A DNA stretch of 64,000 bases from an uncultured Oscillospiraceae bacterium (lineage in GTDB: Bacteria; Bacillota; Clostridia; Oscillospirales; Oscillospiraceae): assembly GCA_947589745.1 (NCBI GenBank), contig CANQCS010000003.1:53421-117420 (forward strand). Direction: 5' to 3'. The position numbers and the translations under genes were made by a program. Under the pieces are notes generated by a model. That model was not told the DNA's origin. It saw only the letters and a program-made list of their open reading frames with translations, and did not search any database. This document shows positions 7,055 through 60,903 of the stretch, one piece after another; position 1 is the stretch's first letter, and every line of letters begins with the position of its first letter.

Positions 7055-7690
7055 GGGTGGGGGCTCCGCCCCCACCGGAATTGATGCGCACCCCCAGTGG
7101 GGCGCCCCCGGGGTTACTTTTCTCTCGCGAGAAAAGTAACCAAAAGCGCGTTTAAGAAAACCAAGGTTTTCTTAAAAATCTTTCCTCATTTTTTATTTTG
7201 TTTTGCGCTCCACCTTTGGTCTGTTTTGTCTAAACCGCGCTGCGTCCCGTGTATAAGATTTTTGCGGCTGTTTTAGTATGTCCACAAGAAATACCAGCAA
7301 AAATCCCTCGGCTCGCTCCACGTTTCGGGGTGCTACTTACCCTTCGTGCGTCATGCCTACCTCGCAAGTACATGAGTCTCATCTAAACCGACAACCACCG
7401 CACCATCAATTGCGTAGTGGAACGGAGCAACCAGCAGTTGGACTACGGAAAACCAACACCGCAGTACCGATGAAAGCCTTCCCTGGGTCCCACCCAACAC
7501 CCAACTGCCCTTAACCGTCATCCCTGGGGATTCTTAAGGGGCCCCAGCCCCTTAAGCAATTTTTTGGTTACTTTTTGTTTGCACAAAAAGTAACCCAGGG
7601 TGCCGGCAGGCACTGAAAGATATATTAAGAGGTGGTAGGGGCCGGAGGCCCCTACAGATAGGCACTGTGGGGGCTGCGCCCCCTATCCCC
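7055..7690 (-). repeat. RPT-1 copy A (central region rearranged)
   Basis: Shares terminal hairpins, gcgtagtggaacggagcaaccagcagttgg arm and ttaagggcag core with other copies. Confidence 0.85.
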
Positions 7691-13817: not shown

Positions 13818-13910
13818 AATACTTTTTCTTGAAAGAAAAAGTATCAAAAAGAACTTTACCATCGCTACCAAAACGCTGCGATACTTACATGTTCCGCACG
13901 GTAACGATAC
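13818..13910 (-). repeat. RPT-2 copy 3
   Basis: atactttttcttgaaagaaaaagtatcaaaaagaactttaccatcgctaccaaaacgctgcgatacttacatgttccgcacggtaacg. Confidence 0.9.
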
Positions 13911-33332: not shown

Positions 33333-33970
33333 GGGGCGTGGGGGGCTCCGCCCCCCACCGGGGTTGGTAGGGACCTTCGGTCCCTGCCGGCCCTGGGTTA
33401 CTTTTTGTGCAAACAAAAAGTAACCAAAAAATTGCTTAAGGGGCTGGCGCCCCTTAAGAATCCCTGGGGAGGACGGTTAAGGGCAGATAGATGGTGGAAC
33501 TAGGGGCCAGGGAAAGCATTCACCGGGGATGCTGTGTTGGTTTTTCCGTAGTCTTACTGCCGGTTGCTCCGTTCCACTACGCAATTGATAGATGTTTCGT
33601 TTTGAGCCGTATACGGAAATCTGTCCTGTGCGTAGTGGAACGGAGCAGAACGCAGTGGGACTACGGAAAACGACCAGCGCACCCAATGTCCGGTTTCGCC
33701 GCCCCAAGCGGCGAAACTTGCGCCGCAGAAGGATCTTCTTGGGGACATACTATCAGTAGCCGCTTCGCCTTTATACACGGGACCCGGCCCGGTTTAGACA
33801 AAACAGACCACAGGGGGAGCGCAAACCTAAACAAAAAATAAGGAAAGATTCTCAAGAAAACCATTCCTGGTTTTCTTGAGCGTGCTTTTGGGTACTTTTC
33901 CCACGGGGGAAGAGTACCCCAGGGCGTGGGGGCGGAGCCCCCACACCCCCGTGGGGCCGGAGGCCCCTAC
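33333..33970 (+). repeat. RPT-1 copy B (subtype I)
   Basis: Hairpin 33396-33425, hairpin 33435-33458, 41-nt inverted arms 33542-33582/33630-33670. Confidence 0.9.
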
Positions 33971-37862: not shown

Positions 37863-38423
37863 ATGACCTATACTATGAAAGTCGCGGGCCTGGAGCGGGA
37901 GCTGCCGCTGTGCAAGGTCAGCGACGATCTGTACATCGGCGCGTTCATCATCTTCGGCGATGCGGAGCTGACGGTAGCCTGCGCCTCGGCGCTGCTGGAA
38001 AAGATCCCGGCGGACAGCTATGATTACATGCTGACGGCGGAGGCCAAGAGCATTCCTCTGATCCACGAGATGGCCCGTCAGTCCGGGGCCAAGAAGTATT
38101 TCATTGCCCGCAAGGGGTCCAAGGTGTACATGCCCGACCCCATCCACGTCTCGGTGCGGTCCATCACCACGCTGCGGCAGCAGGACCTGTTCCTGGGGGC
38201 GGACGACTGCGCCCTCATCAAGGGCAAGCGGATCCTCATTGTGGACGACGTGATCTCCACAGGCGAGAGCCTGCACGCCCTGGAGGAGCTGGTGAAGACG
38301 GCCGGCGGCATCGTCGCCGGCAAAGCGGCGATTCTGGCTGAGGGTGACGCCCTCAGCCGGCCGGACATCACTGTCTTGGCGCCCCTGCCGGTATTCAATC
38401 CTGACGGAACGGTTAAGGGCTGA
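37863..38423 (+). CDS. Phosphoribosyltransferase family protein (APRT-like)
   Basis: PRPP motif GKRILIVDDVISTGESLHALEELV. Confidence 0.75.
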   Translation: MTYTMKVAGLERELPLCKVSDDLYIGAFIIFGDAELTVACASALLEKIPADSYDYMLTAEAKSIPLIHEMARQSGAKKYFIARKGSKVYMPDPIHVSVRSITTLRQQDLFLGADDCALIKGKRILIVDDVISTGESLHALEELVKTAGGIVAGKAAILAEGDALSRPDITVLAPLPVFNPDGTVKG

Positions 38424-38499
38424 CCCCTGCGGGGTCAGCCTGGGAAAGCAGAGGGGCCTCGCGGCCCCTCTGCTTTCCTCTCCCCTCTTCACTGGGGGA

Positions 38500-39196
38500 G
38501 TGGGGGCGGCAGCCCCCTAATGCTGTCAAAAGGGGCCTCCGGCCCCTTTCACCTCTTTATCTTGTCGTAGCTGCGCCGCGCACCCTGGGTTACTTTTTGT
38601 GCAAACAAAAAGTAACCAAAAAATTGCTTAAGGGGCTGAGGCCCCTTAAGAATCCCTGGGGAGGACGTTAAGGGCAGATGGATGGTGGAACTGGGGGCCA
38701 GGGAAAGCATTCATCGGGGGTGCTGTTTTTTGCCGTATTCCGACTGCCGGTTGCTCCGTTCCACTACGCAATTGAGGGCGCGGTGCTTGTCGAGTCCGTA
38801 GACGGAAATCTGTTCTGTGCGTAGTGGAACGGAGCAGGACGCAGTACGACGCGGGCCGTATGCGGAAATCTACCAATTGCGGAGTGGAACGGAGCAACCA
38901 GCAGTTGGACAAAGTAAAACGACCAACGCACCCAATGAGCCCCCGCACCAGCGCTTCACTCTCCTTGGGGACATACTAAAACAGCCGCTTCGCCCCATAC
39001 ACGGGACCCGGCTCGGTTTAGGCCAAACCAACCAAAGGGGGAGCGCAAAACAAAACAAAAAATGCGGAAAGATTTTTAAGAAAACCATAGGTTTTCTTAA
39101 ACGTGCTTTTGGTGACTTTTCCCACGGGGGAAAAGTCACCAGGGGACGGCAGGCACCCCCCGGGTGCCTATCGCCCCCGAGGGGGCGGAGCCCCCT
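38500..39196 (+). repeat. RPT-1 copy C (subtype II, three arm motifs)
   Basis: ggttactttttgtgcaaacaaaaagtaacc; ttgctccgttccactacgc plus two gtggaacggagca arms; ggtgacttttcccacgggggaaaagtcacc. Confidence 0.9.
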
Positions 39197-39272
39197 TGCT
39201 TTTCTGCGTTTCTTATGGTATAGTTTTTATATCATTTGTTAACCTGTTAACGAAGAACAGAAGGAGCCCGCC

Positions 39273-40199
39273 ATGGACATCGAAACATTAAAAGCAAAAC
39301 TGGAAGAAGAAAAATATGTCTGCGACGACCAGCTGGTCACCACCCTGCTGGTGGCCCTGAAGCTGGGCCGCCCCCTGCTCATTGAGGGCGCCGCCGGCGT
39401 CGGCAAGACCGAGGTGGCCAAGGTCATGGCTGCCGCCCTGGACCGGGACCTGGTGCGCCTCCAGTGCTACGAGGGCCTGGACGAGAGCAAGGCCCTCTAT
39501 GAGTGGAACTACCAGAAGCAGCTCCTCTCCATCCAGGTGCAGATGAACCGGCGGGACCCCGACGAGCTGACCAAGTCCCTGTTCAGCGACGAATACCTGC
39601 TGGAGCGCCCCCTGCTCCAGTCCATCCGCTCCGAAAAGCCCGTGGTGCTGCTCATTGACGAGATCGACAAGGCGGACGAGGAGTTCGAGGCGTTCCTGCT
39701 GGAGCTGCTCTCCGAGATGCAGGTCACCATTCCCGAGGTGGGCGTGGTGAAAGCTGCCTCCATCCCCTTCGTGGTGCTGACCTCCAACCGCACCCGGCCC
39801 CTCAGCGAGGCCTTGCGGCGGCGGTGCGCCTACCTCTATATCCAGTACCCCGACCTCAACAAGGAGGTGGCCATCATCCGCGCCAAGGTGCCCAATGTCA
39901 ACGAGCACCTGGCCGTCCAGGTGGCCCAGGCCATCCACGCCCTGCGGGACAGCGAGGCCATCCTGAAAAAGCCCTCCATCGCCGAGACCCTGGACTGGGT
40001 GGCCGCCCTGGAGGCCCTGGGCGTCAGCGACCTGACCCCGGAGGCCGCCCGGCAGACCATGGGCTTCGTCCTCAAGAGCAGCGACGACTTGGACGCCGCC
40101 GCCCCTCTGCTCACCGGACAGGGCAACGGGTGCGGCTGCGGGTGCGGCCACGACCACGGCGGCGAGGGCTGCGGGCACCACCACCATCACGGCCAATGA
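39273..40199 (+). CDS. MoxR-family AAA+ ATPase with Cys/His-rich C-terminal tail (CoxD-like)
   Basis: LLIEGAAGVGKTEVAKVMA...VLLIDEIDKADEEFEAFLLELLSE; tail GNGCGCGCGHDHGGEGCGHHHHHGQ. Confidence 0.85.
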   Translation: MDIETLKAKLEEEKYVCDDQLVTTLLVALKLGRPLLIEGAAGVGKTEVAKVMAAALDRDLVRLQCYEGLDESKALYEWNYQKQLLSIQVQMNRRDPDELTKSLFSDEYLLERPLLQSIRSEKPVVLLIDEIDKADEEFEAFLLELLSEMQVTIPEVGVVKAASIPFVVLTSNRTRPLSEALRRRCAYLYIQYPDLNKEVAIIRAKVPNVNEHLAVQVAQAIHALRDSEAILKKPSIAETLDWVAALEALGVSDLTPEAARQTMGFVLKSSDDLDAAAPLLTGQGNGCGCGCGHDHGGEGCGHHHHHGQ

Positions 40200-43326: not shown

Positions 43327-43723
43327 TGTCGGTTTCTAACCTCCTAGAATCATCTAAGGGGCCTCCGGCCCCTGGGGTGGAGTGGTAGGGACCTCCGGTC
43401 CCTGCTGACCCTGGGTTCCTTTTCCCACGCGGGAAAAGGAACCAAAAGGGCGCCAGCCCGTAGGGCTGGACCTCTAACTATTTTTTGTTAAGGGCAGATG
43501 GATGGTAGAACTAGGGGCCAGGGAAAGCATTCATCGGTACTGCTGGTTTGTTTTTCCGTATTCTTACTGCCGGTTGCTCCGTTCCACTACGCAATTGATG
43601 AATGTTTCTTGTCGATGTGGAAATTGGTGCTGCGGTTGTATGACAAAACGCAATTCAAATGTAATGCTGACAGATTTGGGAAATCGTCATACACTTGTCA
43701 TATCAACCCCTTTGAGGTGCGAT

Positions 43724-43918
43724 ATGGCAGAATTCAGAATTCCAAAAATCATTCCTACAACCAGCAAAAGTATCCGCTTCCCCAATGATATGATTAAGGA
43801 AGTCGAGTCTGTCATCCAGGGCCGCGACTGTACATTCTCCGCTTTTGTGGTGGAGGCTGTGCGCGTGGCGCTGAAAAGCTTACAGGAACAATCTGAAAAT
43901 ACAATCTCTACGAGGTGA
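43724..43918 (+). CDS. RHH-like small protein (YlcI/YnfO-like)
   Basis: MAEFRIPKIIPTTSKSIRFPNDMIKEVESVIQGRDCTFSAFVVEAVRVALKSL; GAGGTG RBS. Confidence 0.65.
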   Translation: MAEFRIPKIIPTTSKSIRFPNDMIKEVESVIQGRDCTFSAFVVEAVRVALKSLQEQSENTISTR

Positions 43919-43923
43919 CGACT

Positions 43924-44118
43924 ATGACCGATATTCCCAATTATTACACCCTGCTTTTCAACCGCGTGACAGACGCGATCAAAGCATTGGAGCAACAGAA
44001 CTACGGCACTGCCAGAGACATACTGGTAAAGGCGCAGCAAGAGGCGGAAGAGCTGTACATTGAAGCGGGAGAAGCACCTGCCGCCCAGAGCGACAAGAAT
44101 CATCTACCCCTTGCGTAG
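43924..44118 (+). CDS. Small hypothetical protein, paired with the RHH-like gene
   Basis: MTDIPNYYTLLFNRVTDAIKALEQQNYGTARDILVKAQQEAEELYIEAGE; GAGGTG RBS; stop codon lies in the RPT-1 arm. Confidence 0.6.
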   Translation: MTDIPNYYTLLFNRVTDAIKALEQQNYGTARDILVKAQQEAEELYIEAGEAPAAQSDKNHLPLA

Positions 44119-44412
44119 TGGAACGGAGCAACCGGCAGTCGGACGATGGAAAAAGAAAGCCGCACCCCCGCTGAATGCCTTCTCTGGGTACATCCTACCC
44201 ACGATCTTCCCCGAAATAAAGGGGGTCCAGCCCGTAGGGCTGGCGGTTTTTTGGTGACTTTTTGTCCGCACAAAAAGTCACCCAGGGTCAGCAGGGACCG
44301 CAGGTCCCTACCAGGGCTCCGAGGGGCTGGAAGCCCCCCGGCACCCAGTCCCGGTGCAGCACAGCCGGAATGAAAATTGTGGGGACGGGGCAAAGCCCCG
44401 CCCCCTCGCTTT

Positions 44413-48812: not shown

Positions 48813-49460
48813 GGCGTGGGGGCTCCGCCCCCACCGGGTCAGCAGGCACCCCCGGGCGGGGTGCGCCCCTGGCCTACTTTTCCCCCACGGGAAAAGTAGG
48901 CAAAAGCGTGCTCAAGAAAACCGAGGTTTTCTTGAGAATCTTTCCTCATTATTTTATTTGTTTTGCGCTCCCCCTGTGGTTGGTTTTTCCTAAACCGGGC
49001 CGGGTCCCGTGTATGGGGCGTTGCGGCTACCCTAATATGTCCCCAAGGGGATTGAAGCGCTGGTGCAGGGGCTCATTGGGTGCGCTGGTCGTTTTTACGT
49101 CGTCCGACTGCGTTCTGCTCCGTTCCACTACGCATAAGAAACATTTCCGTTGACGGCTCGATACGAAACATCCATCAATTGCGTAGTGGAACGGAGCAAC
49201 CAGCAGTTGGACTACGGAAAAACAAACCGGCACCCCCGATGAATGCTTTCCCTGGCCCCTAGTTCCACCATCCATCTGCCCTTAACTAAAATTAGTCAGA
49301 GGTCCAGCCCTACGGGCTGGCGCCCTTTTGGGTACTTTTCCTCCGTGGGAAAAGTACCCCAGGGTGCCGGCGGGCACTGATAGATAGAATAAGAGGTGGT
49401 AGGGGCCGGAGGCCCCTACAGATTGGCACTGTGGGGCTGCGCCCCCACACCCCCCTGGCA
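48813..49460 (-). repeat. RPT-1 copy E (subtype II)
   Basis: gcctacttttcccccacgggaaaagtaggc; ctcaagaaaaccgaggttttcttgag; both arms; ccagccctacgggctgg. Confidence 0.9.
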
Positions 49461-57484: not shown

Positions 57485-58155
57485 CCGCCTGGGGGGGGGC
57501 AGGGGGGCGCAGCCCCACAGTGCAAATCAAGTAGGGGCCTCCGGCCCCTACCACCTTTTTTCTAGCCGCAGCTCCGCCGCGCACCCTGGGTTACTTTTTG
57601 TGCAAACAAAAAGTAACCAAAAAATTGCTCAAGGGGGCTTTGGCCCCCTTGAGAATCCCCTCCGTGTGGGAAGGGCGTTAAGGGCAGATGGATGGTGGAA
57701 CTAGTGGCCAGGGAAAGCTTTCATCGGGGGTGCTGTTTTGTTTTTCCGTAGTCCGACTGCCGGTTGCTCCGTTCCACTACGCAATTGAGGGCGCGGTACT
57801 TGTCGAGTCCGTAGACGGAAATCTATCCTGTGCGTAGTGGAACGGAGCAGGACGCAGTCGGACAAGCATAAAACGACCAACGCACCCAATGAGTCCCCGC
57901 ACCAGCGCTTCAATCCCCTTGAGATCATACTCAAACAGCCGCTTCGCCCCATACACGGGACCCGGCCCGGTTTAGACAAAACCAGCCAAAGGGCGAGCGC
58001 AAAACTAAACAAATAATAAGGAAAGATTCTCAAGAAAACCTCGGTTTTCTTGAGTGCACTTTTGGTTACTTTTCCTGCAAGGGAAAAGTAACCCAGGGGT
58101 GCACCCATCGGGGGGGTGCGCATCAGCCCTGGTGGGGGCGGAGCCCCCACACCCC
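57485..58155 (+). repeat. RPT-1 copy F (subtype II)
   Basis: ggttactttttgtgcaaacaaaaagtaacc; gctcaagggggctttggcccccttgag; both arms; ctcaagaaaacctcggttttcttgag. Confidence 0.9.
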
Positions 58156-60194: not shown

Positions 60195-60903
60195 ATTTTT
60201 GGGGGCTCCGCCCCCAGGGATAGTTTTGGTAGGGACCTGCCGGCCCCTGCCCTCCCCTGGCACTAGGCCGCCTTTGGCGGCCCAAGCCCTAGGGCCGTCC
60301 TACGGACGGCCCGACGGGTGACTTTTCCCTCGCAGGAAAAGTCACCAAAAGTGCGCTTAAGGGGGCTTTCGCCCCCTTAAGAATCCCTCGGGGATGACGG
60401 TTAAGGGCAGATGGGGGTTGGGTAGGACCCAGAGAAGGCTTTCATCGGTACTGCGGTGTTGGTTTTTCCGTAGTCTTACTGCCGGTTGCTCCGTTCCACT
60501 ACGCAATTGATAGATGTTTCGTTTCGAGCCGTATACGGAAATCTGTCCTGTGCGTAGTGGAACGGAGCAGAACGCAGTCCGTCAACGTAAAAAACGACCA
60601 GCGCAACCAATGTTCTGGTTTCGCCGCCCCAAGCGGCGAAACTTGCGCCGCAGCAGGATCTCCTTGGGGACATACTAAAGTAGCCGCTTCGCTCCATACA
60701 CGGGAACCAGGCCCGGTTTAGACCAAACCAACCACAGGGCGAGCGCAAAACCAAACAAAAAATAAGGAAAGATTCTCAAGAAAACCATTCCTGGTTTTCT
60801 TGAGCACGCTTTTGCCTACTTTTCCCGTGGGGGAAAAGTAGGCCAGGGGGCGCAGTGGAACTGCGACATGAAAAAGAGGTGGGAGGGGGCGGAGCCCCCT
60901 CCC
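60195..60903 (+). repeat. RPT-1 copy G (subtype I)
   Basis: gggtgacttttccctcgcaggaaaagtcacc; gcttaagggggctttcgcccccttaag; both arms; gtttcgccgccccaagcggcgaaac; gcctacttttcccgtgggggaaaagtaggc. Confidence 0.9.

Follow-up and report, generated by a model that had tools for sequence, protein, structure and literature searches.

Seven copies of RPT-1 in the window

The window, the whole 64-kb stretch of DNA that we analyzed, contains seven copies of a long palindromic repeat, RPT-1, each located in a gap between genes. An earlier note, made from the sequence alone, had placed seven intergenic copies here, and a BLASTN search of the window with copy B recovered every one of them at the place and on the strand claimed, with the hairpins in the order described. 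The seven intervals sum to about 7–8% of the window, in agreement with the ~7% given in the note. Six of the copies are simple elements made of one L-type and one R-type half (LR, see below). Copy D had been called composite, which it is, because its halves flank a two-gene insert. The copies and this insert are as follows:

7055-7690 (-): copy A, LR element; convergent gap between RNA 2'-phosphotransferase (+) and sigE (-)
33333-33970 (+): copy B, LR element; convergent gap between an S1-domain gene (+) and hflX (-)
38500-39196 (+): copy C, LR element; tandem gap between apt-like and MadB-like ATPase genes; the right inner arm has an extra copy
43355-44408 (unstranded): copy D, two halves around an insert of two genes; gap between thrC and a cysK-like gene
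43724-43918 (+): copy D insert, gene 1, a 64-aa protein that is RHH-like by eye; no Pfam match
43922-44120 (+): copy D insert, gene 2, a small protein (MTDIPNYYTLLFN...); no Pfam match
48813-49460 (-): copy E, LR element; tandem gap between M20 peptidase and OTCase-like genes
57485-58155 (+): copy F, LR element; gap between convergent transporter genes
60195-60903 (+): copy G, LR element; gap between tandem ABC transporter genes

An alignment of the six simple copies spans a core of ~500 bp, with a mean column identity of 72% and long invariant blocks. The note had also stated that RPT-1 lacks a consistent ORF; no ORF is indeed common to the copies, but some copies do contain genes. The outer hairpin pattern ACTTTTN{4,24}AAAAGT matched 17 times in the window, compared to 0 expected from shuffled sequences, with four of the 17 matches representing a second, unpaired hairpin family. 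This second family, ACTTTTTCTTGAAAGAAAAAGT, is found at window positions 13819, 17345, 36446 and 37747 and recurs singly throughout the genome; it also fits the loose outer-hairpin pattern and so inflates that count.

Architecture of the element

Each element consists of two facing, inverted halves of nested hairpins. Read from the outside in, a half comprises H4, H3, H2, a T-run, H1, a core of either L or R type, and an inner arm. H4 is the outermost GC hairpin (typically GGGGGCGGAGCCCCC), H3 a second GC-rich hairpin that occurs as several interchangeable sequences, and H2 the outer, near-perfect palindrome (GGNNACTTTT...AAAAGTNNCC). The T-run, 4–6 T read outward, lies between H1 and H2, and the inner arm of each half contains GCTCCGTTCCACTACGC. 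Half-elements are about 200–300 bp long and hold several hairpins, four of them nested at each end. Copy B is organized as follows:

33338-33358 (unstranded): left H4, outermost GC hairpin; outward flank conserved
33366-33388 (unstranded): left H3 hairpin
33396-33425 (unstranded): left H2, outer palindrome (GGTTACTTTTTG/CAAAAAGTAACC)
33435-33458 (-): left H1, inner hairpin, followed by TTTTTT on the minus strand; terminator-like, outward
33475-33565 (+): L-type core (GTTAAGGGCAGATGG...)
33566-33582 (+): left inner arm, GCTCCGTTCCACTACGC
33630-33646 (+): right inner arm, GCGTAGTGGAACGGAGC; the cargo of other copies sits between the two arms
33700-33850 (+): R-type core, with the conserved motif TACACGGGACCCGGCCCGGTTTAG at 33774-33797
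33851-33880 (+): right H1, inner hairpin, followed by CTTTTG; terminator-like, outward
33890-33919 (unstranded): right H2, outer palindrome
33926-33944 (unstranded): right H4, outermost GC hairpin

This terminal order was strict. All 127 ends that we scored had H1, a T-run of at least 4 and H2, with the T-run facing outward, and at none of them did the 14 nt outside H2 contain a T-run. The H2 stem was perfect over the 12 positions examined at 119 of the 127 ends, and several of its positions vary by paired changes. A terminator scan called both H1 hairpins of copy B, and a consensus search found no promoters within this copy. When two halves were paired they were always inverted, with the outer hairpins outside and the arms inside. 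Most compact elements were of the LR type (42), with four LL elements and one RR element.

Copy number and mosaicism in the genome

The genome from which the window comes (G000) is 4.05 Mb in 252 contigs. Whole-genome figures given here are pattern counts, and the detailed reading covers 2.39 Mb of stretches, 59% of G000, scanned with profile HMMs. A strict, oriented end signature, TTTTGGNNACTTTTN{6,14}AAAAGTNNCC, matched G000 329 times (169 forward and 160 reverse), corresponding to ~165 elements genome-wide, and the reversed-pattern control matched 0 times. A BLASTN search of G000 with copy B gave at least ~40 near-complete copies among the matches listed. Within the 2.39 Mb we identified 80 complete elements, 11 elements truncated at contig ends and 34 lone halves, which together make up 2.8% of the bases; about 14 of the lone halves border cargo. 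Several contigs start or stop within an element, indicating that the assembly breaks there and that the count is a lower bound. The density of elements was uneven, from one per 100 kb of contig C4 to seven in the 64-kb window. RPT-1 is a real, abundant and apparently undescribed repeat; our search of open-licence papers for accounts of such repeats in Faecalibacterium, Oscillibacter or Oscillospiraceae found nothing relevant.

The copies within G000 have the core in common and not the terminators alone, a possibility that the earlier note had raised. Among the 42 compact LR copies compared, pairwise identity had a mean of 82% and a maximum of 93%. Distances between left halves were uncorrelated with those between right halves (Mantel r 0.006, p = 0.44), and there was no correlation of distances within the L half either. 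Taken with the range of identities, this absence of correlation indicates that the copies are mosaics, and with no pair above 93% identity we see no evidence of recent transposition.

Presence, absence and exchange among relatives

Diverged elements or their ends were found throughout the genus. Within the family, the strict signature was present in 9 of the 121 genomes drawn, belonging to 8 of 106 genera, and outside the family it was absent from all Clostridia drawn. Two genomes of other genera (G264 and G324) have the layout H2 / T-run / H1 ... H1 / T-run / H2 around unrelated cores, such that the terminal architecture alone is common across genera and the cores are not conserved. In a genome of another family (G030), one locus is similar by eye.

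Comparing orthologous sites revealed insertion polymorphism between species. G000 has an element at three sites on contig C14 (28318, 33812 and 39003), where the nearest species, G019, has an element or a reduced relic, and G012 and G006 have short, element-free gaps. The site of copy E has no element in G017 or G006 and is filled with different versions in G019, G012 and G020. Shared sites differ between sister species in orientation, end type or cargo: G000 and G019 have opposite orientations at site E and at C14:28318; at C14:33812 the copy in G000 is compact and that in G019 encloses an XRE-type gene plus another ORF with no Pfam match; and at C14:39003 the G019 copy is reduced to two H2 hairpins around one H1. 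No target-site duplication was readable, the only empty sites being in species too diverged to show one. At the site of copy C (window 38423-39273 compared to L082), G019 has another gene and no element, indicating that a gene loss accompanied or preceded the element in G000. This G019 gene reads, by eye, like a type III pantothenate kinase.

Placement at the 3' ends of genes

Using codon-based, approximate gene calls, we found that divergent gaps were avoided: they held 3 of the 64 placed elements, whereas among 500 other gaps 95 were divergent (Fisher p = 0.0026). Convergent gaps were enriched, with 18 of the 64 elements compared to 71 of the 500 (p = 0.0096). Selection against blocked promoters would account for the avoidance of divergent gaps. 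On the 3' side of genes, the spacing between the stop codon and H2 clusters at 52 nt and above, often at 52–75 nt. H3 and H4 together take up about this length, so that in many cases the element directly adjoins the stop codon. On the 5' side, H2 lies at least 78 nt away. The orientation of elements relative to neighboring genes was mixed.

This placement could mean that RPT-1 is a two-way terminator or 3'-UTR element that the host maintains and inherits vertically, that ends and stabilizes the flanking transcripts, and in which cargo is incidental. The outward hairpin and T-run at every scored end, the terminator calls for both H1 hairpins of copy B, the location near stop codons with its preference among gaps, and the retention across genera of the terminal architecture and not of the cores all point in this direction. 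However, many orthologous gaps do without the element, the same genes can have it in either orientation, and a conserved core of 500 bp plus inner arms far exceeds what termination needs. A bias toward 3' ends is also common in parasitic repeats (PMC3049150). We consider a host-maintained terminator a serious but unlikely explanation for RPT-1 as a whole.

Separately, we observed TGTTTCACGTGAAACA (parS-like) sites adjoining two elements, in the flanks of G000 C14:36416 and 39003, which suggests that contig C14 is near the replication origin.

Genes carried between the two halves

The carriage of accessory and defense genes between the palindromic halves is the most interesting property of RPT-1, and one that the earlier note had missed. 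In the sampled 2.39 Mb of G000, nine elements hold genes between their inner arms, as does one more in G019. The G000 cargo is as follows:

copy D: 64-aa RHH-like protein and a small partner
one element: SAM methyltransferase and DUF6199 lipoprotein
three elements: GNAT acetyltransferases
one element: XRE-type regulator and DUF6809 protein
one element: small membrane protein
one element: one small ORF
L234 (G000 C28), 1-2224: type IIG (MmeI-type) restriction-modification enzyme

The MmeI-type gene is closely followed by an inner arm and an R half, its left side being lost at the contig end. GC content was 0.39–0.55 in the eight of nine inserts measured, whereas genes average 0.65, with a 1% quantile of 0.55, so the cargo genes look foreign. 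Some of them also occur outside of elements. The RHH-like pair is present at site D in G006 without element ends, and a homolog of one of the GNATs is free-standing in G017, again without element ends, indicating that the cargo consists of ordinary accessory genes of the genus. In some cases, such as site D, the genes may have been there first and the halves added later.

In the gap between thrC and the cysK-like gene, an RHH-like gene and a small 'YYTxLFN' protein, related to the pair inserted in copy D, are conserved in G006, G008, G012, G017 and G020, and G008 and G012 have further genes at this site. This pair, which has no Pfam match, looks like a toxin-antitoxin or regulatory pair.

Search for a mobilizing enzyme

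We found no recombinase or autonomous version of RPT-1 among the cargo in the 2.39 Mb of G000, nor any transposase there bordered by RPT-1 ends. The sole transposase found belongs to an insertion sequence that has interrupted one of the R cores (G000 C12:12653-14126), which is an ordinary insertion. It is of the DDE type, with weak DDE_Tnp matches and ends like AATGCGAATCAAG/CTTGATTCGCATT.

Mobilization of the RAYT/IS200 type was rejected, as Y1 transposases (RAYT, PF01797) had 0 matches in G000 and the two Y1 genes found in the genus, in G008 and G011, have no RPT-1 ends beside them. We also rejected an integron, since no integron integrase (TIGR02249) scored above the cut-off in any of 26 genomes, a result that remains compatible with a source in trans. 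An origin from phage or plasmid was rejected as well, there being no similar DNA in phage or plasmid collections.

Is RPT-1 a single DNA unit?

The mosaicism of the copies raises the question of whether there is one mobile unit at all. By a BIME-like accretion, independent short repeats (the H1/H2 ends, the L core, the R core and the GC hairpins) would gather in tolerant gaps and be shuffled there. Modular mosaics, the coexistence of LL, RR and LR elements with lone halves, the swapping of hairpin types at the same position, and the lack of correlation, whether from one half to the other or inside the L half, are what such a process would leave. It is harder to reconcile with the strict order and polarity of the modules, with paired halves that are always inverted, and with cargo between the arms, and we judge it improbable.

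The earlier note had also suggested a large structured RNA. Predicted folds of RPT-1 are very stable, far stronger than those of shuffled sequence (z about -7 to -14), and the stems covary, as a large structured non-coding RNA would have it. A transcribed structure under selection is expected to have wobble pairs on one strand. The two strands of RPT-1 are instead nearly equal, with mean folding energies of -234 (+) and -230 kcal/mol (-), the plus strand being the more stable in 27 of 42 copies, and G-U fractions of 8.3% and 8.0%. Moreover, of the H2 pair cells scored in 127 stems a single one was a wobble, the orientation relative to neighbors is mixed, the cores vary between genera, and no Rfam family matched in the window at gathering thresholds. 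Together, these results make the RNA explanation very improbable. A chromosome-organizing or protein-binding repeat, for which gene context gave no evidence, is likewise very improbable: the high copy number and long conserved core blocks would suit one, but the density is very uneven, presence varies between species and there is no fixed orientation.

Probably a recombining element that acts as a gene cassette

We conclude that RPT-1 is probably a non-autonomous, recombining DNA element of one Oscillospiraceae genus, similar to MITEs and BIMEs, that acts as a gene cassette. By analogy, its closest counterpart in behavior appears to be a MITE that also has cargo-bearing versions of the MIC type, combined with mosaicism of the BIME kind and a distribution resembling that of BOX, RUP and SPRITE repeats. 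We do not file it under any of these systems because no parent transposon, duplication, RAYT or integrase was seen.

The MITE-like character proposed in the earlier note stands insofar as RPT-1 varies in presence between species, ends in inverted repeats, encodes no enzyme and has forms with cargo, but no transposase that might mobilize it was found. The note had further held RPT-1 too long for a REP or BIME. BIME and REP units are short (20–40 bp) palindromes with a GTAG or CGTC end tag, and in unit size the objection holds: RPT-1 halves are far longer (200–300 bp) and multi-part, with gene cargo, and G000 has no RAYT. In behavior the two are alike, as BIMEs are also mosaic (PMC3733652) and RPT-1 is an extragenic mosaic of inverted palindromic pairs in hundreds of copies.

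MITEs and MICs differ only in the presence of coding sequence (PMC5444012). Like them, RPT-1 has inverted-repeat ends, formed by H1–H4 inverted at both ends, lacks a transposase, occupies intergenic sites that are filled in some species and empty in others, and exists both as compact, empty copies and as copies with passenger genes between non-autonomous ends. It differs in that its ends are ~200–300 bp and each contain four nested hairpins, no parent IS was found, no target-site duplication was seen, and its copies are mosaic rather than near-identical. In pneumococcus, BOX repeats are modular, BOX, RUP and SPRITE are enriched in convergent gaps, SPRITE is terminator-like, and the repeats occur in few related species (PMC3049150). 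RPT-1 has each of these features, with few related hosts, though its sequences are unrelated and we noticed no cargo between inverted halves in that account. As in integron cassettes, single accessory genes (GNAT, HTH, methyltransferase) lie between palindromic sites and the cargo varies among relatives; unlike them, the loci are scattered rather than in an array, two long inverted halves flank each cargo, and none of 26 genomes has an integrase above the cut-off. Finally, inversion by recombination between terminal repeats has been described for Wolbachia insertion sequences (PMC3004938) and would account for the opposite orientations of RPT-1 at one site.

We infer the following history for the gene-cassette element. 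An enzyme acting in trans would insert elements immediately 3' of genes, after which recombination or gene conversion between copies would exchange their halves and hairpins. This exchange would maintain the copies in species-specific form and could flip them. The palindromic center may be a preferred or tolerated site for foreign accessory genes, such that some copies come to act as cassettes. From their sequence, the hairpin and outward T-run at both ends are predicted to stop transcripts leaving the element, in which case an insert would be insulated from its neighbors and a compact copy could serve as a two-way terminator. Palindrome breakage, in which SbcCD cuts the center and repair proceeds from another copy or captures foreign DNA, is an attractive candidate mechanism that fits both the mosaicism and the position of the cargo. 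A bolder possibility, to which we give limited credence, is that RPT-1 represents a new class of dispersed gene-cassette system, with paired multi-hairpin halves, insulated ends that terminate transcription outward and a center that acquires and exchanges accessory and defense genes by its own recombination route, the compact copies being empty docking sites along the chromosome.

RPT-1 accounts for about 3% of the sampled genome in a gut lineage that has received little study, and contigs of these metagenome assemblies frequently end at it. If cargo carriage is as we propose, these bacteria would have well over a hundred insulated intergenic sites for the turnover of accessory genes, at which acetyltransferases, regulator/toxin-like pairs and a restriction enzyme would come and go outside of prophages, integrons and conjugative elements.
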